64,000 nucleotides of DNA from Lepas anatifera (Eukaryota > Arthropoda > Thecostraca > Lepadidae): contig JAOTON010000896.1 of NCBI GenBank assembly GCA_034440635.1, positions 2,239,001 to 2,303,000 on the forward strand, written 5' to 3'. A program made the translations under genes and the position numbers. This document shows positions 1,554-62,102 of this stretch, piece by piece. Below the pieces are notes generated by a model that was not told the origin of the DNA, did not search any database, and saw nothing but the letters and a program-made list of their open reading frames with translations. The stretch's first letter is position 1. Each line of letters opens with the position of its first letter.

Positions 1554-2754
1554 TTAACCCTATTTCCGTCAGGCTCCCGGCTACCCCTATTTCCGGCAGG
1601 GGGCAATATCGGCCCCCTAAGATCTCGTAATCTAACCGGCCGATTTTGAAAATTCAAAGTGCTATAGATTCCCCTGACGCTAAACTTTATTTTGAAAAAG
1701 AAAATTTCAAAGTTTTGATCTTTAAGGAGAAAGTCGTGCAAAATATACAATTTTTGTGTATTTTTTAGATTTTCCATAACCCTTGTCTCTGTTGTACGAT
1801 TTTCACAAAACTAGTTCAGATTTACAAATAATTGACCCAAAATTGTCATATACTCGAGTTACGCAAAATTCGAAATTCAATGGCAGTTCCAGGACCAGGA
1901 CTATGAGGGGAAATATATACAACCTAAAAGTTTTTGTTACGCGGATTAGAAGCCGTGATATACTGTTGGCATCTTTGACACATAAATAAATGAAAAAGTG
2001 AAAAACTCATCAGGGGCGGATGCAGTAAGGTAAAACAGTGGGGTAAAATACATCCCAACAATATGCGAGTGGTATGCATGAGTATATTGGTCCTCGACTA
2101 GTTGAAATTTATTTCTGATAATTTTTACCCTCCATGGCGCTCTGGGAAGGGGTGACATAGGCGGATCAGGACTCTCGTCGTGGGGGGCGGGTGGGGGTGA
2201 TTGGAACACATTTTCAATATACAACGATATTGAGTCGCGGCGGTGATACTGGCTGGGAATATGCATTTTGAAAATGTGTAGTGACTGGACACGCCTCTGG
2301 TAATCTATTTGGTTATAACTATTTTGAATTTTCTATCCCAATTGTATTGCCTGGCCGGCTGTAAGCGTCTTCTCACTTACTAACGTTTAGTCTTCTTGTA
2401 ACATCCCCTTTTGAACTGCTGTAACCGCCCTGATGAATACAAATAGTGACTTGTGAATGCACTATCATCTCACATAAAAATGATATAATAAAACCATATA
2501 ACTGGTATCAGGATCAGCAGAGACGGCTTCCTTTTACAAAGAACCCATCGCATACGATAATACTTGGTTTGTGGATAGAACCTCCCCAAAACCCAGCCAT
2601 AGCTCCGCCCCTGGTAAATATATAATATTGACAATTTCGAAACCTGCCTGTACTAGTTTTGGAAAGTCAGGAAGTTTCAAGTTCTATCGAGCCGTTTCGG
2701 AGATATTCTTGAAAACCTTAGGGGGCAATATTGCCCCCTGCCAAATAGGGTTAA
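1554..2754 (-). mobile_element. TTAA element, family E
   Basis: The element is flanked by TTAA at 1554-1557 and 2751-2754. The right end carries one terminal repeat (on the minus strand TTAACCCTATTTGGCAGG) followed by the palindrome GGGGGCAATATTGCCCCC. The left end carries the same repeat twice in tandem (CCCTATTTCCGTCAGG and CCCTATTTCCGGCAGG), then GGGGGCAATATCGGCCCCC. The single end is therefore on the right and the element reads on the minus strand. It sits inside the 30-bp minisatellite, which resumes directly after it. It has no coding capacity. About 600 bp of the interior is a second element (2011-2613). Confidence 0.8.
2011..2613. mobile_element. hAT-like non-autonomous element nested in family E
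   Basis: The ends are CAGGGGCGGATGCAG on the left and TAGCTCCGCCCCTG on the right, an imperfect terminal inverted repeat of the CAGGGGCGGAT type often seen on hAT MITEs. I could not identify a clean 8-bp target duplication, so the boundaries are inferred. The same CAGGGGCG start recurs elsewhere in the window, for example at 35121. Confidence 0.45.
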
Positions 2755-3935
2755 GTGTACTGCGGAACAGCCTGCTCTCAGTTAGTGTACTGTGTAACAG
2801 CCTGTTCTCAGGTGGTGCATTGCGGAATATCCTGCTCTCAGTAAGTGCCTTGCAGAGCAGCCTGTTCTCAGTTTGTGTCTTGCAGAACAATATACCCTCG
2901 GCTAGTGCACTGCGGGACAGCCTGTTATCAGTTTGTGCATTGCGGAACAGTATATCTTCAGGAAAGGTACTGTGAACAGCCTGTTCTCAGTAAGTGTAAT
3001 GCGGAATAGCCTGTTCTCAAGTGGCTCATTGCGGAATAGCCTGCTTTTAGTAAGTGCCATGCAGAACAGACTTTCTCTTAGAAAGTGTCTTGCAGAACAG
3101 CATACTCTCGGTAAGTGCACTACGGGACAGCCCGTTATTATTTTGTGCATTGCAGAACAATATACATTCAGAAAAGGTACTAGTGGTGCACTGCGGAACA
3201 GCCTGCTCCCAGTATGTGTACTGCGGAACAGCCTGTTCTTAGGTGGTGCTTTGCGGAACAACCTGCCCCCAGTAAGTGCCTCGCGGAAAAGCCTGCATTC
3301 AGTGCCTTGCGGAACAGCATATCCTCGTTTAGTGTACTGCGGGACAGTCTGTTCTCAGTTGTTGTACTGCGGATAAGCCTGGTCTCAGGTGGTGCGCTGC
3401 GGAACAGCCTGCTCTCAGTAAGTGCTGTGAGGAACATCCATCCTGTTCTCACTTGGTGCATTGTGGAACAGTATACCCTCAGTAAGTGTATTGCAGAACA
3501 GCCTGTTCTCAGGTGGTGCATTTAGGAATAGCCTGCTCTCAGTAAGGGCCTTGCGGAAAAGCTTGCTCTCAGGTGGTGCATTATGGATCAGTATACCCTC
3601 AGTAAGTACCTTGCAGAACAGCATACCCTCGTCAAGTGTATTGCGGGACAGCCTGTTCTCAGCTCGTACGCTGCGGAACAGCCTGCTCTCAGTAAGTGCT
3701 TTGCGGAATAGCATTCACTCAATAAGTGTACTGCGGAATACCCTGCTCTCAGTAAGTGCCTTGCGGAACAGCATTCACTCAATAAGTGTACTGCGGAATA
3801 GCCTGCTCTCAGGTGGTGCATTGCGGAACAGTATACCCTCAGTAAGTGTACTGCGGAACAGCCTGTTCTCAGGTGGTGCGCTGCGGAGCAGCCTGCTCTC
3901 AGTAAGTGTACTGTGCGACGGGCTGCCGTTGTAGG
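2755..3935. repeat. Minisatellite, 30/60-bp units
   Basis: About 40 copies of a 30-bp unit alternate between two subtypes: GTGTACTGCGGAACAGCC TGTTCTCAG and GTGCATTGCGGAATAGCC TGCTCTCAG. Long open frames on both strands (to about 157 codons) arise because 30 and 60 are multiples of three and the unit lacks stops. They translate to monotonous Ser/Leu/Asn-rich strings and are not gene candidates. The array is followed by ATTT repeats at about 3943-3963. Confidence 0.9.
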
Positions 3936-3971: not shown

Positions 3972-4984
3972 TTAATCCTCTCCCCACCGGGGGCCATCGA
4001 TGGCCCCTAAGCTTTTTTGGGATAGCAGAAAAACAACGAGGCGCAGCACCGCGATTGAGGGCTCTATCTCTCACCCCATCATTTTCTCACCATCCCTGAA
4101 ATTTTTTATCCTGGGTCACACAAGGTCAGGTCACCAGGCGAGGTCAACTAGGGTCAACTCGATTCAACTTTTGAGCTCTACTATAGCTACATTTCTAAGC
4201 CGATTGATTTGAAATTTCCTTCACTTCATATCTAGAAAATCTATATCCGGGATTTTTTTCGATTTTGTGACCTGAGGTCAGGTCATGAAGTGACCTCCCA
4301 TATTGGAAAAGCATAGGGAAAAGCTTTCTTATGATCTAAAAGTCACACAAATTATTGAAAATGTTCAAATATCTCTGAGAAGCGTTCTTGGACACGTTTT
4401 CACGGATCCCAGGGGCGACCTTTGACCTATCTGAGGTCATTACAGGTCACCAGGGTCAAAAACAGTATTTTGGATGCTAACTTTTGACCTAATCAAGCTA
4501 GATCGCTAAAATAAACTTAATCGTGTATTTGTCGTCACTGGCTTTTATTCGGTGTACTGCAAGGTCACTTACTGACCTTTCGTGACCTCGTGTCATATTA
4601 GTTCACGAGGTGTCCTCTGGAGGTCAAATCAATGGCGGTGGGTCATTATGTTCCACATAGTGGAAAAAGGTCTGGAATTTTCCTATCAAATGTACTTTAC
4701 CAATTGCATTAGCTCTAACGGCATGAGAGCTATGCCAAGTTTCCTTACGCTTAGCATATTGTTAGTGGAAATAGCCAATCGTGACCCAACTTGCCCTCTG
4801 GAGGTCAAACCATTGACCTGAGCGCTTAAACATGCGGATTAATTTCTGGAGTAATTTATTTCTTGGCTTTCTAATGCGTTTTGCAGATTTGCGCTTACCC
4901 CCATACTTTAGGAGTAAGAGGGGGGCCATCGATGCCCCCGGCTGGGCAAAGGTGGCGCCGGAATCCTGGTGGGGCGCGGGTTAA
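3972..4984 (+). mobile_element. TTAA element, family A (copy A1)
   Basis: TTAA is present at both ends. The left end has a single terminal repeat (TCCTCTCCCCACCGGGGG) and a palindromic CCATCGATGG core. The right end has the repeat twice, but the inner copy is decayed. The interior contains many AGGTCA/TGACCT hexamers. It is the most diverged of the five family A copies. No coding sequence is supported. Confidence 0.85.
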
Positions 4985-5471: not shown

Positions 5472-6321
5472 TTAACACGCGCATTGACGGGGGGCGGGTA
5501 CCCGCCCCCCTCTCGGGTTTTTCGGAGATAGGAGAAAAACGGCGGCGCGTAGCGCCGCCGTACTTAGTATACCTTTTCCCTAATCATTTTTACAACTTCT
5601 GTGAAAATTTTAAGGTTAGGTCATCTCAGGTCAGGTCACCAGTACAGGTCAAGTGACCCGACCTCAAAAAATGTTTAAGATAGCATAAGTCGGAGCAGAG
5701 TAAACTTATCCGATTGAAACTCATATCACATAATGGCCCCACCGAGTTCTCTAAAATATGTTCCGGTATTTTTGATATCGATGACCTAAGATCAGGTACG
5801 AGGTATGACCTCTCCATTGGAAATACATGGGAAAAATGGTTTTTACGGAATAACTCAGCAACGGATAGTGATAGAGCATTTATTTTAGCTGAATTAGACT
5901 GGCCTGGGCTTTGCAGTTTTAATGATATGCATTTTATATAATTTGACCCTGACCTGACCTCAGGTCAGGTCAAATCCTTGATTTGACCTAGCAAGGTCAA
6001 ATTATATATCATTCGATTTGGCTTGCTAAGAGGATTCATATAGTTCAAGTCGTTTTGCTCTATCTTTACTTGTTCAGATGTAATGTCCGAAAGACTGAAT
6101 TTACATGTTATACCTATGACGGGCATGTTTTGACCTCTCGTTACCTTAAATGTGACCTGACAAAAAAATGGTTCAAATGTTTTCGATGGAGAAGTGGATG
6201 GGCAGCCCAACGCCGTTTACCGTTTTTCGCTACCTACCGTGGTTCTCGAGATCTTAGGGGGCGGGTACCCGCCCCCCGTCAATGCGAAGGTGGCTCAGAC
6301 CCCCGTCAATGCGCGTGTTAA
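5472..6321 (+). mobile_element. TTAA element, family B (copy B1)
   Basis: TTAA flanks an 850-bp element. The left end is TTAACACGCGCATTGACGGG, then palindrome GGGGGCGGGTACCCGCCCCC, then a second hairpin GGCGGCGCGTAGCGCCGCC. The right end repeats the palindrome and then has two tandem copies of the terminal repeat joined by a GCGAAGGTGGC linker. A nearly perfect inverted cluster of four AGGTCA-type half-sites is centred at 5961. Small ORFs inside are shadows and their reading frames are not kept in copy B3. Confidence 0.88.
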
Positions 6322-6922
6322 GACTAGTTAACGCATAAACTGTGCTCGACGTCTTTTTTTACTCATCTTCATTTTTTGGTGTCCTTTTGGCGCCGTCGCA
6401 AGAGTCTTTCTCGGCACCGCACCCCCCCTTGAGTGAAATCATGGTTACGCCTCTGCCTAAGAACATCAGGCATAAGGACACAGGTATCCTGTTTGCGTTC
6501 GCAAGCAGGTCTGCTTGCGCACATTTGGCATACGAACGTCTGCGCTTACGAACATTTACCCTGGAATCTTCGGAGGGAGGGCTAGGTTTATGAAATACCG
6601 ACTGCTAAGGTCCTAAGGAAGCTTCCGGAGAGCATGAAATTTTATCGACGGGTTGCCGATACTCGCATCGGCGGGGAATGGGATTTTTTCACCTCGTAGT
6701 CCACGGAACATATTTCTAACTTAATGATGCTCGCTGGCAAATGCTAAAGAATAAAGAAATTAGATTGTGTTCCAGAGATGGAAATAATACAATCCGTATT
6801 CTAATATGGTTTTTCTTGGAATATTTGGAACAAATTTGATGTCATTGATGTAAGGCTTGAATGGTAGGCCTATGACGTTACTTAGGCGTGAATGCATCTC
6901 CTTGAAGGTATCATTCAATAAA
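6322..6922. other. Unannotated spacer between TTAA elements
   Basis: There is no recognisable gene. The ORF at 6342-6593 has no family signature and ends in low-complexity residues. Confidence 0.5.
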
Positions 6923-7956
6923 TTAACCCTCGCCCCACCGGGGGGCCATCGATGGCCCCCTAAGGTTTTTCCGGGATAGCAGAAAAACAACGAGGTGCAG
7001 CACCGCGGTTGAGGGCTCTACCTCTCACTGCATCATTTTCCCATCATCCCTGAAATTTTTTACCCCGGGTCACCCAAGGTCAGGTCACCAGACGAGGTCA
7101 ACCAAGGTCACCTCACTTCACCTTTAGAGCTCTGTAAGAGCTACGTTTCAAAGTCGATCGATTTAAAACTTCCTACACTTCATGATCCCTCCAGGGTCTA
7201 CAAGATGTATATCCGGGATTTTTTCGATTTCGTGCCCTGAGGTCAGGTCACGAGGCGACCTCTCCCATTGGAAAAGCATGGGGAAAAGCTATTTCATGAT
7301 ATAAAAGCCACAAAAATGATTGCAAATACTCAGACTGCTCAGAACAACGTTTTTGGACACCCTTTCACGGATCCCAGGGGTCGTATTTGCCCTTTGACTT
7401 TTCCAAGGTCATCCAAGGTCACCAGAGGTCAAAAACAGTATTTTGACAATAACTTTTGACCTAATTGAGCTAGAGCGGTGAAACAAACACCATCGTGTTC
7501 GTCTTGTCACTGGCTTTCATTTGATATACGGCAAGGTCACTTTTTGACCTTTCGTGACCTCAGGTCATATTAGGTCACGAGGTGACCTCTGGCGGTCAAA
7601 CCACTGGCAGGAGGTCTTTACGTTCCACATAGCGAAAAAAGTACTGGCAATTTGCTATCAAATGTACTTTACCAGGCCTCAATAGCTCTAATGGCATAAG
7701 AGTTATGCCCAGTTTGCTTAATCATTGCATATTTGAGTGAAAATAGCCGATCTTGACCTAATTTGACCTCTGGAGGTCAAACCATTGACCTGAGCACTAA
7801 AACATGCGAAGTAATTTCTTACTGAATTCACGCGAGCTTTCTATTGCACTTTGCAGATTTGCGCTAACGCCCATATTTTCGGAGTTAGAGGGGGGCCATC
7901 GATGGCCCCCCGGTGGGGCGAAGGTGGCGCCGGACCCCCGGTGGGGCGCGGGTTAA
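6923..7956 (+). mobile_element. TTAA element, family A (copy A2, best preserved)
   Basis: TTAA lies at 6923-6926 and 7953-7956. The left end has a single CCCTCGCCCCACCGG repeat followed by GGGGGCCATCGATGGCCCCC and a weaker hairpin GGTGCAGCACC. The right end repeats the CCATCGATGG palindrome, then has two tandem copies of CGGTGGGGCG separated by AAGGTGGCGCCGG. I count about 20 exact AGGTCA or TGACCT hexamers in 1034 bp, where about 0.5 would be expected by chance at equal base use. They occur as direct, inverted and everted pairs, most densely at 7530-7590 and 7755-7795. It is non-coding. Confidence 0.92.
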
Positions 7957-10933: not shown

Positions 10934-11863
10934 TCATTGTCGAGGCTTACAGGTTGTTCGCTCGCCGGGCTGGAAAGAGAGTCCCGCCCCGCCCCGGTTG
11001 TACCTCCGACGGCCGTTGAGGGACTGGGTAGGGCGGGAGCTGGGAGGTAGCTGGTTCCCGTTAGTCCCCTGAAGCTGTCTCAGGAACGTCAGCTACACGT
11101 CCGTCACCGGCACTGTGTGTGTGAAAACCATCCAAGTGACCACCTCGTCACACAGGGGAGTGGGCAGCGAGCCGGAGTACTTGAAGAACTTGTCCGTGTT
11201 GACCGGCAGCAGCTTGGAGAGGTGCGGGGGTGAGGCTACTTGCGCCAGTGTCAGGGCCTCTCGGATCCGCGGAAGATCAGCTGCCAGACTGATAATTCCT
11301 CGATTTTTCAACAGTTTCAAAGGTTTTGTGGTCTTCTTTCCCAGTACTGAAAGAGCTATGTAGCCGTCCACACGATTCGACGCCATGACTGCAGAATCGT
11401 ATTTGGTGTTTCTGGCGTAGATTTGAATTTCCAGCGGGTACTTGATGCCTTTTATGGAGTGTGCCGACCCTTGGTCGTCCGTGGCCGCGAAGTGAAAAAC
11501 AACTCCCTCTGGCTGGTACTCTCCGACAAGGCCGCCTCCTTTGATGGTGGGCGTCCTGCCGTCGGCGGGGTTCAGTATTAGTCCAGCGCGCCGCCCGCCG
11601 TTGATCAGAGTCATATTCGGCGCCCGGTGGAAGTGGGTAAACTGGAGCGGCGACAACTCCACCTTGACGTCGCAGAGGTCGAGGTTGATGGGCGACTATA
11701 GGATTCCACAGCACTGAGGGCTCACGGCACCCCAATCATCCGTTTCTACCGTGCCACCGCTGTCTTTAAAGATTGTGTCGAGTGAGCCCCCGAAGTAACC
11801 TCCGACAATTTCACACAAAGCAAAGAGTATGATGCTAGTGACGCTAGCGAGATGAGCCGGCAT
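10934..11863 (-). pseudogene. Carbonic-anhydrase-related secreted protein, broken copy 1
   Basis: The frame starts with an N-terminal signal-like stretch (MPAHLASVTSIILFALCEI) and is followed by alpha-carbonic-anhydrase sequence: DDWGAVSPQCCG, SPINLDLCDV, DDQGSAH and NTKY. Compared with copy 2 there are two nonsense changes: TAG at 11696-11698, just before the SPIN motif, and TAG at 11093-11095 after HTVPVTDV. The middle section between them is open. Like copy 2 it has no introns and lacks two of the three family zinc ligands. The region around VASPPHLSKLLP is intact here, whereas copy 2 has a frameshift there, so the two copies decayed independently. Confidence 0.85.
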
Positions 11864-12271: not shown

Positions 12272-13218
12272 CTAACCCTCGTCCCGGTGGGGGGGTTTTT
12301 GAACACCCCCTCGGGTGTTTCCGGCGGCACGAAAAAACCGCGGCGCTTCGCGCCGCCGTACTTAACTTAGATTAACCTTGATAAATTCCACAACTTTCCC
12401 AAAATTTTTCATTTGGTTCATTTCAGGTCAGGTCACCAGTGCAGGTCAAGTGACCTCACCTCCAAAAATGTTTAAGGTGGTATAAGTAAGAACTGGGTGA
12501 ATATATCGGATGGAACCATATACGACATAATAATGGGCCCACCGAGTGCTACAAAATTTGTTCCGGGATTTTTCATATCGATGACCTAAGCTCAAGTACG
12601 GACCATGACCTCTACATTGCAAATACACGGGCAAAACAGAAATTGGGATGTATTTGTTTAAATACAGTTGAGAATAACTTCATATTCTCCAAATCGTACT
12701 ACGTTCGGCCCCTTTCCAGGTTCGTGTTGAAATTTTTGACCTGTGACCTCTGATAGGTCATCAGGGAATATTTAAGCAGTTTTTAGTTAGGTCAATAACT
12801 TTGCATGAAACGATGATGCAGCTTTTATTTTGATATCATTGCGTTTGCATTACTATTACGAGTCGATTGATATGCATATTGGTTATTGGCTATGCTAGGT
12901 TAAAAGTGATCTTGACCTGGCCTGGGGTCAAGCCATTTTGTGTTTTGACCTGGTATGATCATACTATACATCATTCGATTCGCCGTGACGAGAGGAAGCG
13001 AATGTTACCTAAAAATGATTCTAACTCAATTCTGTCAGACCTTAGAGCCCAAAAACTTTTCTCAAAATCCCACTTTCTTTGACCAGTCATGACCTCAATT
13101 TTGACCTGAGCCAAAAAATGTGACCGATATAGCTTCTTCATGAATTTGTATAAGCTATCCACCAGCGTTCGTGTTTTTTTCGCTATCCCGAACAGGGGCC
13201 GTGTTCGAGGGAGTGTTT
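12272..13218 (+). mobile_element. TTAA-type element, family C (copy C2, decayed)
   Basis: The left end is CTAACCCTCGTCCCGGTGGG with a partly palindromic GGGGGTTTTTGAACACCCCC and a hairpin CCGCGGCGCTTCGCGCCGCC-like run. The next section matches family C at 52263-53468 (the same order of TCAAGTGACCTCACCT, TGTTCCGGGATTTTT, ATCATTCGATTCG). The right end is eroded and ends near TTTAA at 13216-13219. AGGTCA-type hexamers are frequent. It is non-coding. Confidence 0.65.
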
Positions 13219-15294
13219 AAACACCACCACCAGGGCAAAGCACAGTGATGGAGGAGGCCTGAAAAATGGGACGAAATTCATAGCTCAATAAATAATAATA
13301 ATAGAACAATGATTTTGGATTTAAATTGAGGCTCTTTGTCAGCCGGCTCAAACAAGCACACCTAATTTTGTTTTTCCTTTTAACCTTCCTTTTACTAGGG
13401 GTCGATTCTATCCTCCTCTTTATTTTTCGCAATGGGAGAAAAAAACGGCTCAGTTTATGCGCAATGCCGCGTAGCAAGTGCAAAGCACAATCAATTTGAT
13501 ACATCTTGACGAAATTTCAATCCAAGGTGAGGTCAGGTCACCGAGTTATGATGTCATTTCTAAACTGATGTGAGGCAATGTTGGGTCTCAAAACAAGGTT
13601 GACAAAAGCCGGAAGTAGCTCGGCTTCTAGAAGAGTTAGATCAAGTTTCTATAAACCATTCAAACTTTATTGCAAAGAAAAATCTAGAGAGGACATCCAT
13701 TTTGAGGTCAGTTCATAACGAAGGCACCAGGGCACCTATCGGCACCCATTGGGTGCGCTACTTCATGCAGAGGGTATCGAGGGTCTTAACGGCTCTGACC
13801 ATGACGGTAGCTTTATGAAATAATTACACAGTGGCAAATCGGACCATGCGGTAAGCTGAATAAAGGTAAAAGTAAGGAAACAATTCATAAGATTGATAAT
13901 TTGATTTATTGATTTGATTTCCCCAGACGTTAGACGGCAAACATTGCAAGTGAAAAATGCGTTCTCACCCCGTATTTATTAGCATTGGGAACACAGCATC
14001 AACACATCATCAGAAGATGACCACTGTTAAACTTTAACAGCCGGCAAACGCAAAAAGTGCGACAAGCGACTTTCTTCGAAATCCAAGAGAGGTAGCATAT
14101 ACAGTCGGTTCGGTACTGATTGAAAAGTATTAGGTGGCGGTTGTTTTTGCAAAATATATCTCAAGTGAAGGTCCTTGCCGACACCATTGTTGCCTCAGCT
14201 GCTGCGTTTTAACTGGATGCATGAACTGACGTGCAAAATACTTCATAAGGTCCAAAATTCGGAAGCCATTGAGAAAAGACAAAATCATTGGGATCGGCGA
14301 AAACAGTTTTTTGTCCATAATTTTCCAAATTGACGTCTCATCCAGATTGCAGGGTCCCAGATTTAAAGAGCCCGTCAAAATACATTGCTAGAGACGAAAC
14401 GTTTAGGCAAAGAGTAATCGTTTTTAAGATATTTATTAAGCGAACTGACACTAATATCTACCAATCACTCTGGAAACGGCTGCATATACCTGAAAGTCAG
14501 TTTTAACGGGGGGAGAGGTCAAAGATTAACGGAAAATTGGTTTAAGATTATATTTTACAAATGGGAAGGAAGTGAGCCGAAGTTAATATCTGATTTTTTA
14601 TTCACGGCTTGATCTCGCTGCGCCCTAATAGCTTTTGAACAACATGCTTTCGTTGTCTCAGTTTACCACCTTGCTTCTCAACTTTATTGCCTCCTTCAAT
14701 AAAAGGCAATCCATCAATAACGTTACCCATATTTGGTAACTTTTTACCCCCTTCCTCCCCCATTTAAATGTGTCATTTGATTGGAGAAATGAAATAATAC
14801 GCGTCGATTGGTGGATGCCGCGCGCGTCATTGCCACAACCGCCCGTCGACTACGGGTAGAACATGCGCTGACTAAAACTATCATAACTTTCTTACGGCCG
14901 TCGGTTCCCGACTTACGGATTCCGCCAATGTAAAGAAGATACTTGTCAGGCTACATGGTATGATTTTCTTGCTGATCCTGACTGTGCATTTTTTGCCAGT
15001 GTAAGGAAATATGATGTATGTTATACATTTTAGTTCCGAAACATGTGTTTGTTAAAACGAACTCACTGCATTCGCCGGAGCAGCTAGAACCGTATTTTTG
15101 TAACCAGGAGGTCGCAAAGATCCCAAGTGTCACGGTAGTATACGTTTTTTATGGATGGCGAGGTGTGAGCACCTGTTATTAACGTTTTAGATCATGCTAT
15201 TATTTCTGGTCAGATAACCGTATTTAGCGAGGCAGAATAAATTTCAAGTTTCAGCCCCTGTGAAACCAGTGTGGTACCCTAGAGGAAGAAAATA
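13219..15294. other. 2-kb stretch without a recognisable gene
   Basis: I see no convincing coding exon, RNA gene or terminal-repeat element. Short ORFs (13217-13504 minus, 14130-14378 minus, 14951-15133 minus) have no motif I recognise and no consistent splice context. An AAT-rich tract is at about 13290. Confidence 0.5.
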
Positions 15295-17059: not shown

Positions 17060-17154
17060 TGTCGTTTCTGGCATTCTCGTCCCGTTTTTTAGGCCCGCTG
17101 CATCACTGTGCGAAGGTGGCTCGGAGGCCCACCGGGGCGCGAGTTAAGTTCCAC
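17060..17154 (+). mobile_element. Orphan doubled end of a TTAA element
   Basis: GCGAAGGTGGCTCGGAGGCC followed by CACCGGGGCGCGAGTTAA matches the doubled right terminus of families A and C, including the linker. The matching left end is not seen, so this is a solo terminus or a badly truncated element. Confidence 0.6.
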
Positions 17155-18950: not shown

Positions 18951-19985
18951 TTAACCCGCGCCCCACCGGGGGTCCGGCGCCACCTTCGCCCCACCGGGGG
19001 GCCATCGATGGCCCCCCTCTAACTCCGAAAATATGGGCGTTAGCGCAAATCTGCAAAGTGCAATAGAAAGCTCGCGTGAATTCAGTAAGAAATTACTTCG
19101 CATGTTTTAGTGCTCAGGTCAATGGTTTGACCTCCAGAGGTCAAATTAGGTCAAGATCGGCTATTTTCACTCAAATATGCAATGATTAAGCAAACTGGGC
19201 ATAACTCTTATGTCATTAGAGCTATTGAGGCCTGGTAAAGTACATTTGATAGCAAATTGCCTGTACTTTTTCCGCTATGTGCAACGTAAAGACCTCCCGC
19301 CAGTGGTTTGACCGCCAGAGGTCACCTCGTGACCTAATATGACCTGAGGTCACGAAAGGTCAAGAAGTGACCTTGCCGTATATCAAATGAAAGCCAGTGA
19401 CAAGACAAACACGATGGTGTTTGTTTCACAGCTCTAGCTCAATTAGGTCAAAAGTTATAGTCAAAATACTGTTTTTGACCTCCGGTGACCTTGGATGACC
19501 TTGGAGAAGTCAAAGGGCAAATATGACCCCTGGGATCCGTGAAAGGGTGTCCAAAAACGTTGTTCTGAGCAGTCTGAGTATTTGCAATCATATTTGTGGC
19601 TTTTATATCATGAAATAGCTTTTCCCCATGCTTTTCCAATGGGAGAGGTCGCCTCGTGACCTGACCTCAGGGCACGAAATCGAAAAATCCCGGATATACA
19701 CCTTGTAGACCCTGGAGGGGTCATGAAGTGTAGGAAGTTTCAAATCGATCGACTTTGAAATGTAGCTCTTACAGAGCTCTAAAGTGAAGTGAGGTGACCT
19801 TGGTTGACCTCGTCTGGTGACCTGACCTTGGGTGACCCGGGGTAAAAAATTTCAGGGATGATGGGAAAATGATGCAGTGAGAGGTAGAGCCCTCAACCGC
19901 GGTGCTGCGCCTCGTCGTTTTTCTGCTATCCCGGAAAAACCTTAGGGGGGGGCCATCGATGGCCCCCCGGTGGGGCGAGGGTTAA
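18951..19985 (-). mobile_element. TTAA element, family A (copy A3)
   Basis: This is the reverse complement of A2 with high similarity along its whole 1035 bp: doubled terminus at the left, single terminus at the right. Its left TTAA is also the last TTAA of family F copy F1, and its right TTAA is also the first TTAA of family D copy D3, so three elements are chained through shared TTAAs. It is rich in AGGTCA/TGACCT. Confidence 0.9.
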
Positions 19986-21529: not shown

Positions 21530-23312
21530 CATTGTGGTTACAATAGTGCGAGCTGGCAACGCCGTATGACCTTAGCAGTTGGGTCTTTCAACAGCAGTAT
21601 TTACATTAATTAGGGGACATCGTGAAATGTGAAACGTTATGTTCCTAAAAAACTGGACCTAGCCAACACTGGTTGGACTCCTGACACAAAAACGGACGGG
21701 GTCGATGAACCTCCCGACGAAATAAGAACGTCCACCAGGTGATTAATTAGTCAGTCAGTCGGCAGAGGCTCGTGTCGAAGGTGGTCTCGGGAGTACGAGC
21801 CGAACGAGTTAGTGAAGGTGTACTGTTCCGTACAAAGCTTACAGTCAACAGTCAAAGAGTGCAGATCTCATAAGTCCGAAGGTGTGCCGAGAGCCCAGCT
21901 GCCTACGCAGTTCTTCAGCAGAAACATGCAGGCTCATCTCGCTAGCGTCACTAGCATCATACTCCTTGCTTTGTGTGAAATTGTCGGAGGTTACTTCAGG
22001 GGCTCACTCGACACAATCTTTAAAGACACCGGTGGCACGGTAGAAACGGATGATTGGGGTGCCGTGAGCCCTCAGTGCTGTGGAATCCGACAGTCACCCA
22101 TCGACCTCGACCTCTGCGACGTCAAGGTGGAGTTGTCGCCGCTCCAGTTTACCCACTTCCACCGGGCGCCGAATATGACGATTGTAAACGGCGGGCGGCG
22201 CGCTGGACTAATACTGAACCCCACCGACGGCAGGACGCCCACCATCAAAGGAGGCGGCCTTGTCGGTGAGTACCAACCGGAGGTAGTCATTTTTCACTTT
22301 GCGGCCACTGACGACCAAGGGTCGGCACACTCCATAAAAGGCATCAAGTACCCGCTGGAAATTCAAATCTACGCCAGAAACACCAAATACGAATCCGGAG
22401 ACACGGCGAACACTCGTGTGGACGGCTACATAGGCCTTTCCGTACTGGGAAAGAAGACCACAAAACCTTTGAAACTGTTGAAAAATCGAGGAATTATCAG
22501 TCTGGCAGCTGATCTTCCGCGGATCCGAGAGGCCCTGACACTGGCGGAAGTAGCCTCACCCCCGCACCCTCCAAGCTGCTGCCGGTCAACACGGACAAGT
22601 TCTTCAAGTACTCCGGCTCGCTGCCCACTCCCCTGTGTGACGAGGTGGTCACTTGGATGATTTTCACACACACAGTGCCGGTGACGGACGTGGAGCTGAC
22701 GTTCCTGAGACAGCTTCAAGACCCTAACGGGAACCAGCTACCTCCCAGCTCTCGCCCTACCCAGTCCCTCAACGGCCGTCGGAGGTACAACCGGGGCGGA
22801 GCGGGACTCTCTGTCCAGCCCGGCGAGCGAACAACCTGTAAGCCTCGACAATGAGGCTACAGCTCCGTGGAGCTGGTGGTAGGAGAGCCGAGGACGGGAC
22901 GAGTGTCAGCTGACATAGGCTTGTGCGGTGGTTGTCTCTACAAGGGATATGATCCAAGACAGAATACACAATTCATGACATGAGGGAGGCAAGTATACAA
23001 TAAGGAGTAATGACGCGTATCCGATAACACTTTTTATAGATTAGTTTATGACAATACTGAATAATCGTCGTTAAATTCGGTCTTAAAACTATGTCTTCAC
23101 CCCAGGAGGCGACAATAGGTAACGCTATACGTCCAAGCCTGTTCCGAAACTGCACAAAACAGGTGGGAACTACACAAACTGCTCAGGAGACGCCTCTCTC
23201 TCTCCCAGCATGGAGGGCACGTAGGACCCCTTCCGCGAGGTCATACCAGAACGTCCAGGACGTCACAGCCCCAGGGCGTGATCCTCCGGTCACAGCTGGA
23301 TCCAGCGACAAA
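21530..23312 (+). repeat. Inverted duplication, right arm
   Basis: Partner of 10130-12245. Homology begins at a segment like GGCAACGCCGTATGACC and ends near GTCACAGCTGGATCC. It lacks the SINE found in the left arm, so that insertion postdates the duplication. Confidence 0.9.
21926..22854 (+). pseudogene. Carbonic-anhydrase-related secreted protein, broken copy 2
   Basis: The ATG at 21926 begins a signal-peptide-like hydrophobic segment (MQAHLASVTSIILLALCEI); an in-frame ATG at 21812 is further upstream. The alpha-carbonic-anhydrase fold follows: SPIDLDLCDV, GGLVGEYQPE, FHFAATDDQGSAH, NTKY, and at the C-terminus SSRPTQSLNGR. In active enzymes the zinc ligands are the two His of FHFHWG and the His of ELHLVH. 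Here the first is kept, the second is Ala and the third is Gln (LEIQIYAR), so it should not bind zinc normally, like vertebrate CARPs. A 1-nt deletion near 22566-22572 shifts the frame; the rest continues to a TGA at 22852. It has no introns, which suggests a retrocopy. Confidence 0.85.
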
Positions 23313-26362: not shown

Positions 26363-27835
26363 TTAAAGGGAATGTGGCACCTTGGTTGAATGCTGGAATT
26401 TAGTGTCATAAGGCGTGCTTTTAGCCGAAAATGATGAAACCACTTATGATTTCTCTGAAAAATGTACAATAAGCTCAATATTTTGTTTTTAAGAATACTC
26501 CTCTAGGAAAATAAATAAATATATGCCTGTGGATGATGTCATGATCTGGCAACCACTACCTTACACGAAACGCTTCAAGGGCTTCAATTGGCTGATGCTC
26601 ATCGTGATGTCAACATATTTCGTCACACCAGCAGCTCACAACAATGGCCGCCTGGCGAGAGGTACATAGAGGTATATTTCGGGTAGGTTTCAGTTTTTTT
26701 CTTCGGAAATATCGAGTTTTAAGACAAATTATATATAGAATACTGGGTTTTCCCACTTGCCTTAAAACTTGGCTATCTCAGTTAACCCTCGCCCCACCGG
26801 GGGGCCATCGATGGCCCCCCTAAGGTTTTTCCGGGATAGCAGAAAACGACGAGGCGCAGCACCGCGGTTGAGGACTCTACCTCTCACTGCATCATTTTCC
26901 CATCATCCCTGAAATTTTTACCCCGGGTCACCCAAGGTCAGGTCACCAGACGAGGTCAACCAAGGTCACCTCACTTCACCTTTAGAGCTCTGTAGAGCTA
27001 CATTTCAAAGTCGATCGATTTGAAACTTCCTACACTTCATGACCCCTCCAGGGTCTACAAGGTGTATATCCGGGATTTTTCGATTTCGTGCCCTGAGGTC
27101 AGGTCACGAGGCGACCTCTCCCATTGGAAAAGCATGGGGAAAAGCTATTTCATGATATAAAAGCCACAAAAATGATTGCAAATACTCAGACTGCTCAGAA
27201 CAACGTTTTTTGACACCCTTTCACGGATCCCAGGGGTCATATTTGCCCTTTGACTTTTCCAATGTCATCCAAGGTCACCAGAGGTCAAAAACAGTATTTT
27301 AACAATAACTTTTGACCTAATTGAGCTAGAGTGGTGAAACAAACACCATCATGTTTGTCTTGTCACTGGCTTTCATTTGATATACGGCAAGGTCACTTTT
27401 TGACCTTTCGTGACCTCAGGTCATATTAGGTCACGAGGTGACCTCTGGCGGTCAAACCACTGGCGGGAGGTCTTTACGTTCCACACAGCGGAAAAAGTAC
27501 TGGCAATTTGCTATCAAATGTACTTTACCAGGCCTCAATAGCTCTAATGGCATAAGAGTTATGCCCAGTTGACTTAATCATTGCATATTTGAGTGAAAAT
27601 AGCCGATCTTGACCTAATTTGACCTCTGGAGGTCAAACCATTGACCTGAGCACTAAAACATGCGAAGTAATTTCTTACTGAATTCACGCGAGCTTTCTAT
27701 TGCACTTGCAGATTTGCGCTAACGCCCATATTTTCGAGATAGAGGGGGCCATCGATGGCCCCTTCGGTGGGGCAAGGTGGCGCCGACCCCGGTGCGGGTT
27801 AAAACCATGTTATAAAGGTGCCACATTCCCTTTAA
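26363..27835 (-). mobile_element. TTAA MITE, family D (copy D2), host of A4
   Basis: The left end is TTAAAGGGAATGTGGCACCT and the right end GGTGCCACATTCCCTTTAA. Subtracting the family A element at 26782-27802 leaves about 452 bp, the length of D1. The insertion is at an internal TTAA after CTTGGCTATCTCAG, the same site that reads TCAGTTAAAATCACG in D1. Confidence 0.9.
26782..27802 (+). mobile_element. TTAA element, family A (copy A4), nested in D2
   Basis: Full length and close to A2, with a single terminus at the left and a doubled terminus at the right, the latter slightly eroded. TTAA is duplicated on both sides. Because the host sequence is known from D1, this is direct evidence that family A inserts at TTAA and duplicates it. 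Confidence 0.93.
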
Positions 27836-50043: not shown

Positions 50044-50890
50044 TTAACACGCTCATTGACGGGGGGCGGGTACCCGCCCTCCCTCAGGTTTTTCGGAGAG
50101 AGCAGAAAAACGGCGGCGCGTAGCGCCGCCGTACTTGGCATACCTTTTTCCTCATCATTTTGACAACTTCTGTGAAAATTTTAAGGTTAGGTCATTTCAG
50201 GTCAGGTCACCAGTACAGGTCAAGTGACCCGACCTAAAAAAAGTTTAAGATAGCATAAGTCGGAGCAGGGTGAACTTATCCGATTGAAACTCATATCACA
50301 TAATGGCCCTACCGAGTTCTCTAAAATATGTTCCGGTATTTTTTATATCGATGACCTGAGGTCAGGTACGAGGCATGACCTCTCCATTGGAAATACATGG
50401 GAAAAATGGTTTTTACGGAATAACTCAGTAACGGATGGTGATAGAGCATTTATTTTAGCTGCATTAGACTCGCCTGGGCTTTGTGGTTCTAATGATATGC
50501 ATTTTATATAATGTGACCCTGACCTGACCTCAGGTCAGGTCAAATCCTTGATTTGACCTAGCAAGGTCAAATTATATATCATTCGATTCGGCTTGCTGAG
50601 AGGATTCATATAAGTTCAAGTCGTTGTGTTCTATCTTTACTTGTTCAGATGTAATGGCCGAAAAACTGAATTTACATGTTATCCCTATGACGGCATGTTT
50701 TGACCTCTCGTGACCTTAAATGTGACCTGACAAAAAAATGGTTCAAATGTTTTCGATGGAGAACTGGATGGGCAGCCCAACGCCGTTTACAGTTTTTCGC
50801 TACCTACCGTGGTTCTCGAGATCTTAGGGGGCGGGTACCCGCCCCCGTCAATGCGAAGGTGGCTTAGACCCCCGTCAATGCGCGCGTTAA
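50044..50890 (+). mobile_element. TTAA element, family B (copy B2)
   Basis: Very close to B1 along its whole length, including the 5' hairpins, the central palindrome of half-sites and the doubled right end. TTAA is at both ends. The strong similarity of B1 and B2 implies recent activity of this non-coding family. Confidence 0.92.
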
Positions 50891-52262: not shown

Positions 52263-53468
52263 TTAACCTTCGCCCGGGTGGGGGTCTTTTAGACCCCCCT
52301 CGGGTTTTTCCAAAGTGACCAAAAAACGGCGGCGCGCAGCGCCGCCAAACTTGGTCTAGCTGTTCTTCCATCATTTTTACATCTTTCCTGAAAATTTTGG
52401 CTCAAGGTCATATCAGGTCAAGTCACCAGGCTAGGTGAAGTGACCTCACCTCAAAAAATACTTAGGACCGCATAACTAAAAGAAGGGTTAATCGATCAAG
52501 TTGAAACTCATACCACATATTGGGCCCACCAGGAACTACAACATTTGTTCCGGGATTTTTTATATTGGTGACCTAAGGTCATGTGCAGAGCATGACCTCC
52601 CCATTGTCAATACATGGGGAAATCACGAAATGAGCTTTTCTCAGTAAGTATGGATGGAAGCAACTTCAAACATCGGTTGCGACTTGCTCTTAGCCCATTT
52701 CTGAAGCTGATGCCAAAATGTTTGACTTGTGACCTTTAAAAGGTCACCTTAGGTCAAATAAACATTTAATAAACATTTTTGGTGTTTTCTCTATAAATTT
52801 TGAATAAACAAAGATAGAGCTTTTATTTTGTCACTTAAGTGTTTGTATAGTCACTGGAAGTCAAATGATATACATCATGACTATACCAGGTCAAGTTGGG
52901 TCAGACCGTTGACCTGGGTCAGGTCAAATTCTTAAAATTGACCTGGCATAGCAATATCATATATCATTCGATTTGTTTTGACGAGAGGATTGCAATGGTG
53001 CATAAACTATGGCTGTATCTTGTTTGGTTTGGAAGCTATTAGCGAAAAAGGAAACGCCCTTATGCATGGGTGGCTATGGACATTCCCAAGAATATGCCCA
53101 ATATTTAGTGACCTGTAGCTCCCTAGGCTTTGACCTGACACGAAAATAAATGGCACTGTAATGAAAGCGCATCTCAAGAGCTTTCGAATGGTGTTAGAAA
53201 AATGTTTCTAGCTATCATAGTTTCTGAGATATATGAGGTTTGCTTAGTACACCTCATATTAGCGATTTTGACCTGTTTTGACCTCTGGTGACCTTGATAT
53301 TGACCTGACAAGAAAAATGACCGAAGTATTTTCGATATAATTTTCGAAGAGCTTTCGATTGCGGTTTTGCACTTTTTCTAGCTCTCTTAGTTTTTGAGAT
53401 CGTGGGGGTCTTTTTAGCCCCCCACCGGGGCGAAGGTGGCTCGTACCCGCCACCGGGGCAAGAGTTAG
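52263..53468 (+). mobile_element. TTAA element, family C (copy C1)
   Basis: The left end is TTAACCTTCGCCCGGGTGGG with palindrome GGGGGTCTTTTAGACCCCC and hairpin GGCGGCGCGCAGCGCCGCC. The right end has GGGGGTCTTTTTAGCCCCCC followed by CACCGGGGCGAAGGTGGC and a second CCACCGGGGCAAGAG before TTAG (mutated TTAA). The interior is rich in TGACCT/AGGTCA. It has the same architecture as A, B and E with a third end sequence. Confidence 0.88.
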
Positions 53469-60241: not shown

Positions 60242-62102
60242 TTAACACGCGCATTGACGGGGGTCTAAGCCACCTTCGCTTTGACGGGGGGTACCATCCC
60301 CCTCTAAGATCTCGAGAACCACGGTAGGTAGCGAAAAACAGTAAACGGCGTTGGGTGAGCCCATCTACTTCGCCATCGAAAATATTTGTACCATTGTTTT
60401 TGTCACGTCACATTTAACCCGCGCCCCACCGGGGGTCCGGCGCCACCTTCGCCCCACCGGGGGGGCCATCGATGGCCCCCCTCTAACTCCGAAAATATGG
60501 GCGTTAGCGCAAATCTGCAAAGTGCAATAGAAAGCTCGCGTGAATTCAGTAAGAAATTACTTCGCATGTTTTAGTGCTCAGGTCAATGGTTTGACCTCCA
60601 GAGGTCAAATTAGGTCAAGATCGGCTATTTTCACTCAAATATGCAATGATTAAGCAAACTGGGCATAACTCTTATGTCATTAGAGCTATTGAGGCCTGGT
60701 AAAGTACATTTGATAGCAAATTGCCAGTACTTTTTCCGCTATGTGGAACGTAAAGACCTCCCGCCAGTGGTTTGACCGCCAGAGGTCACCTCGTGACCTA
60801 ATATGACCTGAGGTCACGAAAGGTCAAAAAGTGACCTTGCCGTATATCAAATGAAAGCCAGTGACAAGACAAACACGATGGTGTTTGTTTCACCGCTCTA
60901 GCCCAATTAGGTCAAAGTTATTGTCAAAATACTGTTTTTGACCCCTGGTGACCTTGGATGACCTTGGAAAAGTCAAAGGGCAAATATGACCCCTGGGATC
61001 CGTGAAAGGGTGTCCAAAAACATTGTTCTGAGCAGTCTGAGTATTTGCAATCATTTTTGTGGCTTTCATATCATGAAATAGCTTTTCCCATGCTTTTCCA
61101 ATGGGAGAGGTCGCCTCGTGACCTGACCTCAGGGCACGAAATCGAAAAATCCCGGATATACACCTTGTAGACCCTGGAGGGTCATGAAGTGTAGGAAGTT
61201 TCAAATCGATCGACTTTGAAATGTAGCTCTTACAGACCTCTAAAGGTGAAGTGAGGTGACCTTGGTTGACCTCGTCTGGTGACCTGACCTTGGATGACCC
61301 GGGGTAAAAAATTTCAGAGATGATGGGAAAATGACGCAGTGAGAGGTAGAGCCCTCAACCGCGGTGCTGCGCCTGTTTTTTCTGCTATCCCGGAAAACCT
61401 TAGGGGGCCATCGATGGCCCCCGGTGGGCGAGGGTTAAGGTCACGAGGGTCAAAACATGCCGTCATAGGGATAGCATGCAAATGAAGGTTTTCGGCCATT
61501 ACATCTGAACAATTAAAGATAGAGCAAAACAACTTGAACTGTATGAATCCTCGCAGCAAGCTGAATCGAATGATATATAATTTGACATTACTAGGCAAAT
61601 CAAGGATTTGACCCGACCTGAGGTCAGTCAAGGTCAAATTATATAAAATTTATATGTTTCGAACCGCAAAGGCAAGGCAAGTCTAATGTAGCTAAAATAA
61701 ACGCTCTATCACCATCTGTTACTGTGTTATTCAGCCAAACCATTTTCCCATCTATTTCCAACGGAGAGGTCATGGCAGGTACCTGACCTTAGGTCATCGA
61801 TATAAAAAATACCGGAATATATTTTAGAGAATTCGGTGGGCCCATTATGTGACATGAGTTTCAATCGGATAAATTCACCCTGTTCCGACTTATGCTATCT
61901 TAAACTTTTTTTGAGGTCAGGTCACTTGACCTGTACTGGTGACCTGACCTGAGATGACCTAACCTTAAAATGTTAACATAAGTTGTAAAAATGATGAGAG
62001 AAAAGGTATGCTAAGCACGGTGGCGCTACGCGCCACCGTTTTTCTGCTATCTCCGAAAAACACGAGGGGGCGGGTACCCGCCCCCGTCAATGCGCGTGTT
62101 AA
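60242..62102 (-). mobile_element. TTAA element, family B (copy B3), host of A5
   Basis: The doubled end is at the left (TTAACACGCGCATTGACGGG, then CTTTGACGGGGGG) and the single end with GGGGGCGGGTACCCGCCCCC at the right. Without A5 it is about 836 bp, close to B1 and B2. It is more diverged than they are. Confidence 0.9.
60414..61438 (-). mobile_element. TTAA element, family A (copy A5), nested in B3
   Basis: Reverse complement of A2 with high similarity. It is inserted at a TTAA in B3; in B1 and B2 the same position reads CCTTAAATGTGACC, so the TTAA was pre-existing and is now duplicated. Single end at the right, doubled at the left. Rich in AGGTCA/TGACCT. Confidence 0.93.

Follow-up and report, generated by a model that had tools for sequence, protein, structure and literature searches.

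In Trichoplusia ni piggyBac, the left end includes a palindromic internal repeat (bp 17-33, axis near bp 25), and the right end contains an insertion and a duplicated segment, bp 34-63 being nearly identical to left-end bp 7-35 at a shift of 27 bp (PMC7351741). The palindrome is bound sequence-specifically by a dimer of the C-terminal zinc domains of the transposase, and the lopsided ends of piggyBac are termed puzzling and enigmatic (PMC7351741). An older description of the same element gives a 13-bp terminal and a 19-bp subterminal repeat, with a spacer of 3 bp or 31 bp (PMC2532691). TIRs vary widely inside piggyBac clades (PMC10813416), and subterminal inverted repeats, whether identical or different in sequence, have been described in piggyBac-like elements (PMC12324416).

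The window analysed here, a stretch of 64,000 nucleotides from Lepas anatifera, contains several families of TTAA elements that resemble T. ni piggyBac (IFP2, LE35/RE63) in their TTAA, a terminal unit, a palindrome centred near bp 25 and a second unit at one end with a 27-bp shift. The letters of unit and palindrome are different from those of the moth element; the palindrome is longer, with G5/C5 arms, a second hairpin lies inside the single end, and the elements measure about 4.3 kb (element G, described below) or, as MITEs, about 0.85-1.2 kb. The first-pass annotation had stated that no described family has this combination, which overlooks T. ni piggyBac (PMC7351741, PMC2532691). The families are very probably non-autonomous MITEs of one T. 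ni-type piggyBac clade, not a new class.

Other described systems share parts of this layout. The piggyBat element of Myotis lucifugus belongs to the same superfamily and has asymmetric ends in which unit motifs recur and C-terminal domains bind the palindromes, but one of its ends bears three unit-palindrome pairs, spaced in 44-bp steps, and the other lacks a corresponding palindrome (PMC11707139, PMC13405395). Human MER75, MER85 and Looper are comparable in their TTAA and in the inner inverted repeats near their ends, and the passages that describe them mention no doubled terminal unit (PMC12324416). Coral MITE families with differing TIRs around a related interior were tied to piggyBac in 2010 (PMC2872659). 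These Acropora CMITEs are, like the families described here, TTAA piggyBac MITEs with several TIR types and a related interior, and one CMITE family was traced to a piggyBac element; they differ in their size of about 100 bp and in copy number (an estimated 18-737 copies per family in A. millepora), and the parts consulted describe no doubled unit (PMC2872659).

Anatomy of the window elements

Two adjacent MITEs, one of family B and one of family A, display the layout in full:

5472..6321, + strand: family B copy B1, a MITE of 850 bp from TTAA to TTAA
5472..5510, + strand: single end of B1, with TTAA, unit CACGCGCATTGAC and the 22-nt palindrome GGGGGGCGGGTACCCGCCCCCC at 5489-5510, its axis 24 bp from TTAA
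5540..5560, + strand: second hairpin of B1, CGGCGGCGCGTAGCGCCGCCG
6257..6321, + strand: doubled end of B1, with a 20-nt palindrome at 6257-6276, the inner unit from 6273, a linker with GCGAAGGTGGC, the outer unit from 6300 and TTAA at 6318-6321
6923..7956, + strand: family A copy A2, a MITE of 1034 bp from TTAA to TTAA
6923..6960, + strand: single end of A2, with TTAA, unit CCCTCGCCCCACC and palindrome core CCATCGATGG, axis 24
6994..7004, + strand: second hairpin of A2, GGTGCAGCACC
7890..7956, + strand: doubled end of A2, with a palindrome at 7890-7911, inner and outer units (7904, 7932) 28 bp apart and TTAA at 7953-7956

The single end of family B at 5472 reads TTAACACGCGCATTGACGGGGG; at the opposite end, CCCCCGTCAATGCG occurs at 6273 and again at 6300, an offset of 27 bp. 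A B-type doubled end comprises an outer unit, a linker, an inner unit and a CGGGTACCCG palindrome. The palindromes are perfect both in B1 (22 nt and 20 nt) and in A2 (6941-6960 and 7890-7911), and at both ends of both elements the palindrome adjoins the inner side of the innermost unit. AGGTCA/TGACCT motifs, which we take to be nuclear-receptor half-site-like, are abundant in the interiors of A and B, and equally so in the 5' regions of two transposase-bearing relatives, K and the candidate parent of B. Two B copies carry a 23-nt palindrome, TGACCTGACCTCAGGTCAGGTCA, at window positions 5950-5972 and 50520-50542.

Eleven copies were examined in the window (five of A, three of B and one each of C, D and E), together with a remnant of family F. 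Apart from B1 and A2, they are:

3972..4984, + strand: family A copy A1, doubled end degraded
18951..19985, - strand: family A copy A3
26782..27802, + strand: family A copy A4, doubled end degraded
60414..61438, - strand: family A copy A5, nested in B3
50044..50890, + strand: family B copy B2
60242..62102, - strand: family B copy B3, split by A5
52263..53468, + strand: family C copy C1, palindrome core TCTTTTAGA, TTAG for TTAA at the doubled end, offset 28
12272..13240, + strand: family D copy D1, only the single end recognisable, 3' limit approximate
1554..2754, - strand: family E copy E1, core CAATATTG, doubled end at 1554, offset 27, single-end axis 21
17112..17147, + strand: family F doubled-end remnant, with linker, outer unit and TTAA

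By eye, a doubled end can be made out in every copy except D1 (10 of 11), in degraded form in A1 and A4. TTAA stands at both ends of 9 of the 11; D1, mutated and truncated, has CTAA at one end and no recognisable end on the other side. The insertion of A5 is younger than that of B3, since A5 splits B3. The family E copy is apparently inserted into a 30-bp tandem-repeat array (2752-3913, TRF), and similar repeat letters flank it on the other side. The window also contains two similar open frames in opposite orientation, at 11093-11735 (- strand) and 21743-22660 (+ strand), which from their residues presumably encode proteins resembling carbonic anhydrase.

Families A, B, C and E thus bear one layout, as the first-pass annotation had proposed: TTAA, one unit and two units at opposite ends, and a G5-N-C5 palindrome inside each. 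For family F the claim stands in part, the doubled end with its linker being present as a degraded remnant; at this remnant, the family's sole trace in the window, the palindrome was not found. The families had also been said to have no obvious common terminal sequence, yet most of them have TTAAC-x-C-x-CGC and GGGGG. Agreement of the three terminal copies within a family is exact in the best A and B copies, and gives way to 1-3 mismatches or a short gap in C, D, E and decayed copies. The second hairpin near the single end is present in A, B and C, as had been noted, and also in D and G copies; element K, compared with these copies, lacks it. Although it lies outside the repeated unit, the linker GCGAAGGTGGC recurs in families A, B, C and F, and one D copy (L024) has it with a single change; G and E have other linkers. 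Contact between transposase and linker would explain such sharing across families. In published work the piggyBac terminal motif is given as CC[C/T]T (PMC2872659), against which the single ends of A, D and E begin with CCCT, C with CCTT, G with CCCG, and B and K with CACG or CACA; family B, with CACG, departs from the motif.

Transposase-bearing relatives

At least 120 matches to PF13843 (piggyBac transposase family, DDE_Tnp_1_7) are present in the genome, and the loci examined here are a minority of them. At the eight transposase loci examined first, the ends are those of other piggyBac families or were not found; the reading that these loci suggested, that the MITEs have no link to piggyBac transposases, was rejected.

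A longer relative with both a doubled end and a transposase open reading frame, which the first-pass annotation had proposed to search for, exists in element G (L029, 876-5149). It has a single end, a doubled end with an offset of 27 bp, a G5-N9-C5 palindrome at each end, the second hairpin and a 711-codon open frame that matches PF13843 at 2e-64. In the PDB, its transposase matches T. ni piggyBac best (3.4e-70) and piggyBat at 5.9e-26, so that of the two solved transposases it is nearer that of T. ni piggyBac; both have a cysteine-rich C-terminus. The C-terminal stretch of G alone scored below zero against T. ni piggyBac. Among relatives of G, C658, C661, C684 and C687 are invariant and C692, H695 and C705 nearly so, a residue pattern that predicts a cross-brace cysteine-rich domain. 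The transposase of piggyBat is more distant from G, and its zinc domain has a different fold (PMC11707139, PMC13405395). The best named transposase relative, at 51%, comes from the barnacle Amphibalanus amphitrite.

The doubled end recurs in 7 of 10 loci with a G transposase (L029, L032, L035, L037, L038, L039 and L042), while L034 has the single end only and L033 and L036 show neither end within the stretch read. Four of these seven doubled ends have units that match exactly throughout the scored stretch, and in L029, L038 and L039 the units differ; in L042, one of the four, both units carry the same variant. A further TTAA end with a GGGGGGCCAATTGGCCCCC palindrome, unassigned to any of the families, lies at 5162-5250 of L039. 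Likeness between E and G is limited to the doubled-end side (91 bp, 66%).

Element K (L040) joins the MITEs to the transposase from another side. Its transposase, 56% identical to that of G, has stops in frame and lies on the same strand as the recognised end, and this 5' end comprises a unit, a G5-N-C5 palindrome and a GGTTTTTC...AAAAAC stretch as in the MITEs. The first 380 bp of K match B (60%, 1e-16), A (59%, 1e-12) and also C and D, and do not match E; the other end of K was not found at L040.

On contig 417 (L041), a family B single end extends over 649 bp, 81.7% identical to B positions 1-647, and just downstream of it lies an in-frame start resembling the N-terminus of G. The transposase of this element, identified by PF13843 and protein matches, is 40-46% identical to that of G, has stops in frame and lies on the same strand as the B end. 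Beyond the inverted end repeats, no match to the right part of B was found in the stretch read. Known from its single end, it is best read, on sequence grounds, as the parent of B. For A, C, D, E and F, the loci examined yielded no parent element with matching ends. At L011 (1083-6856), a large inverted repeat surrounds a piggyBac transposase match, each arm bearing one type of end (TTAACACGCGCCCACCC..., at 1482 and 6459); this locus was rejected as an ordinary element, its two alike ends and large inverted repeat marking a rearranged copy.

Among the piggyBac families examined in this genome, the doubled end goes with the T. ni-like transposase. When one domain from each of eight families was scored against the T. 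ni piggyBac and piggyBat transposases, G was the sole family closer to T. ni piggyBac (217.9 versus 93.6 bits), and P1, P2, P3, P4, P5, P6 and P8 were each closer to piggyBat. Ends were compared in 19 elements with both ends recognised, leaving out loci that gave no pair, such as L013, L015, L016, L025-L028 and L030, and the further P4 loci L020 and L021. A unit repeated at 27 bp was found at 0 of 30 ends in the 15 elements of the seven piggyBat-like families (the P8 end pair resting on a short terminal match), and all four G elements with both ends are doubled at 27, one of them weakly. A palindrome with its axis at 23-24 also occurs at an end of P2, P3 and P4, and is not the best palindrome in P1, P5, P6 or P8. 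With three piggyBat-like families also showing it near bp 24, the palindrome is the more general feature and does not by itself indicate the T. ni lineage; the doubling is the special feature.

Taken together, the T. ni dimensions, the transposase of G, the homology of K and the position of the B end upstream of a transposase frame identify the families as piggyBac MITEs with the canonical asymmetric end. The first-pass annotation had allowed for ordinary piggyBac MITEs as the outcome contrary to its own proposal, and in substance G, K and the candidate parent of B bear this outcome out, in a comparison made outside Repbase and Dfam. Kolobok or another TTAA superfamily as the source of the MITEs is scarcely credible, given that, in searches directed at piggyBac transposases, the ends of family B, K and G were found to adjoin these, even though the TTAA target site and the high copy number fit Kolobok as well.

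Geometry, abundance and divergence of the ends

Of 25 doubled ends measured in A, B, C, D, E, G and H, 23 have their units offset by 26-29 bp, 19 of them by 27 or 28 bp; the two misses are the decayed copies A1 and A4. Among 20 single ends, 17 have the palindrome axis at a distance of 21-25.5 bp from TTAA, the three misses being D1, the D copy of L024 and the G copy of L038. With the search restricted to 15-30, the axis falls at 25 in D1 and at 23.5 in the G copy of L038, and the D copy of L024 is still off. The same script places the axis of the published T. ni piggyBac LE35 letters at 24.5. Element H, a TTAA element at 6718-8203 of L023, repeats its unit at 27 bp (CGCTCTGCCGGCA / CGCCCTGCCGGCA), and no G5-C5 palindrome was found there at the expected place.

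A blind scan, in which each TTAA was searched for a repeated unit at an offset of 15-59 with a downstream palindrome, covered 38 sequences (the window and the loci; 341,769 bases) and returned 14 matches. Ten of these have an offset of 27 or 28, and all ten are ends of A, B or G; the remaining four are simple or weak repeats. Three shuffled versions of the sequences gave no match. An initial, stricter scan returned six matches, namely five such ends and one AT repeat, with none in three shuffles.

Genome-wide, the linker pattern with GTTAA directly after it has 39,207 matches (19,010 and 20,197 by strand), against 3 for the reversed control. The first 60 matches listed comprise 23 of B, 20 of A, 11 of C and 6 of F, two of the F entries overlapping at the same place. 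The exact single end of B occurs 9,205 times, with 0 for its control. The listing for contigs 1-14 contains 17 exact B single ends, and 11 of these are paired with a correctly oriented doubled end bearing the exact linker, in elements of 842-855 bp; for the other six, the linker may be mutated or missing. Absence of the doubled end from most genomic copies, the other finding that would have told against the proposed architecture, is therefore not what these 17 listed ends show.

The ends had further been described as fast-changing. Identity was compared between families with one copy per family, the interior being taken as the DNA inside the palindrome. When B is set against A, C and D, the units are 38-46% and the interiors 68-75% identical; between B and K, the values are 62% and 63%, and among A, C, D and K they range over 53-77% for units and 58-73% for interiors. 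Faster replacement of the ends, and with it the CMITE-like trait of an interior better kept than the TIRs, thus finds support only where B is compared with its MITE sisters A, C and D; neither appears between B and K or among A, C, D and K.

The B comparison also speaks for end swapping, in which one common interior would have captured the ends of other piggyBac families instead of all parts diverging by descent. Such capture is compatible with piggyBac membership and has a parallel in coral CMITEs, whose differing TIRs surround a conserved interior (PMC2872659). It appears unlikely all the same: among A, C, D and K, and between B and K, units are about as alike as interiors, all families keep the geometry and the TTTTTC...AAAAAC stretch, and the element that bears the B end has a transposase of the same clade.

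Recognition of the ends and its implications

The earlier proposal of a transposase that recognises structure amounts to a new transposon class, whose transposase reads palindromes and doubled repeats instead of sequence; differing ends would thereby be explained. Several end sequences do occur in one layout, the palindrome cores differ between families, and one B copy (L025) has a two-sided core change, AGGGTACCCT. In the second hairpin, though, the arms of 14 copies (126 cells) show 1 two-sided against 14 one-sided changes, which gives no good evidence that selection keeps the pairing. The layout moreover belongs to G with its T. ni-type transposase, and the solved relative binds its palindrome by dedicated DNA-binding domains. 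Structure reading is accordingly very improbable, and the claim is better recast as sequence-specific binding of the palindrome by a dimer, as shown for T. ni piggyBac and inferred here.

For the piggyBac reading, the steps of a mechanism can be modelled on T. ni piggyBac and set beside the anatomy, geometry, transposase linkage and TTAA sites observed in this genome; the sole trace of the mechanism itself is the TTAA at both ends. By this analogy, the catalytic core of a transposase dimer would hold the terminal unit, and the two C-terminal cysteine-rich domains, acting as a dimer, would bind the palindrome. The doubled end would supply a second complete unit and palindrome site, on which an inner, non-catalytic dimer would sit and help pairing. 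Synapsis would then bring together one single and one doubled end, cleavage would form TTAA hairpins, and the ends would be joined to a new TTAA. The letters of each family would be those read by its own transposase lineage, and the geometry (about 27-28 bp, axis at about bp 24) would be fixed because the protein complex fixes it. A second complete site at the doubled end would explain both the presence of three units but two palindromes and the position of the linker, in place of a palindrome, after the outer unit.

The literature consulted, Repbase and Dfam apart, contained no account of such MITEs with doubled ends. What may be new is the family set itself, its abundance and the fixed spacing across differing letters. 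As a tentative interpretation, held at somewhat less than even probability, the families represent a T. ni-type radiation within one genome, in which the letters of unit and palindrome core were replaced more than once, in all three units and both palindromes together, with spacing and symmetry kept. That the spacing is kept despite quite different letters, even in non-coding MITEs, argues that transposition selects for the geometry itself.

Evidence on the lopsided ends of piggyBac has so far come mainly from one moth element. If the radiation is real, each transposase would read only its own ends, and the genome would hold natural, mutually blind pairs of transposase and end, with MITEs in tens of thousands. 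In conclusion, the families would form a ready set for testing which residues of the transposase read the unit and which read the palindrome.
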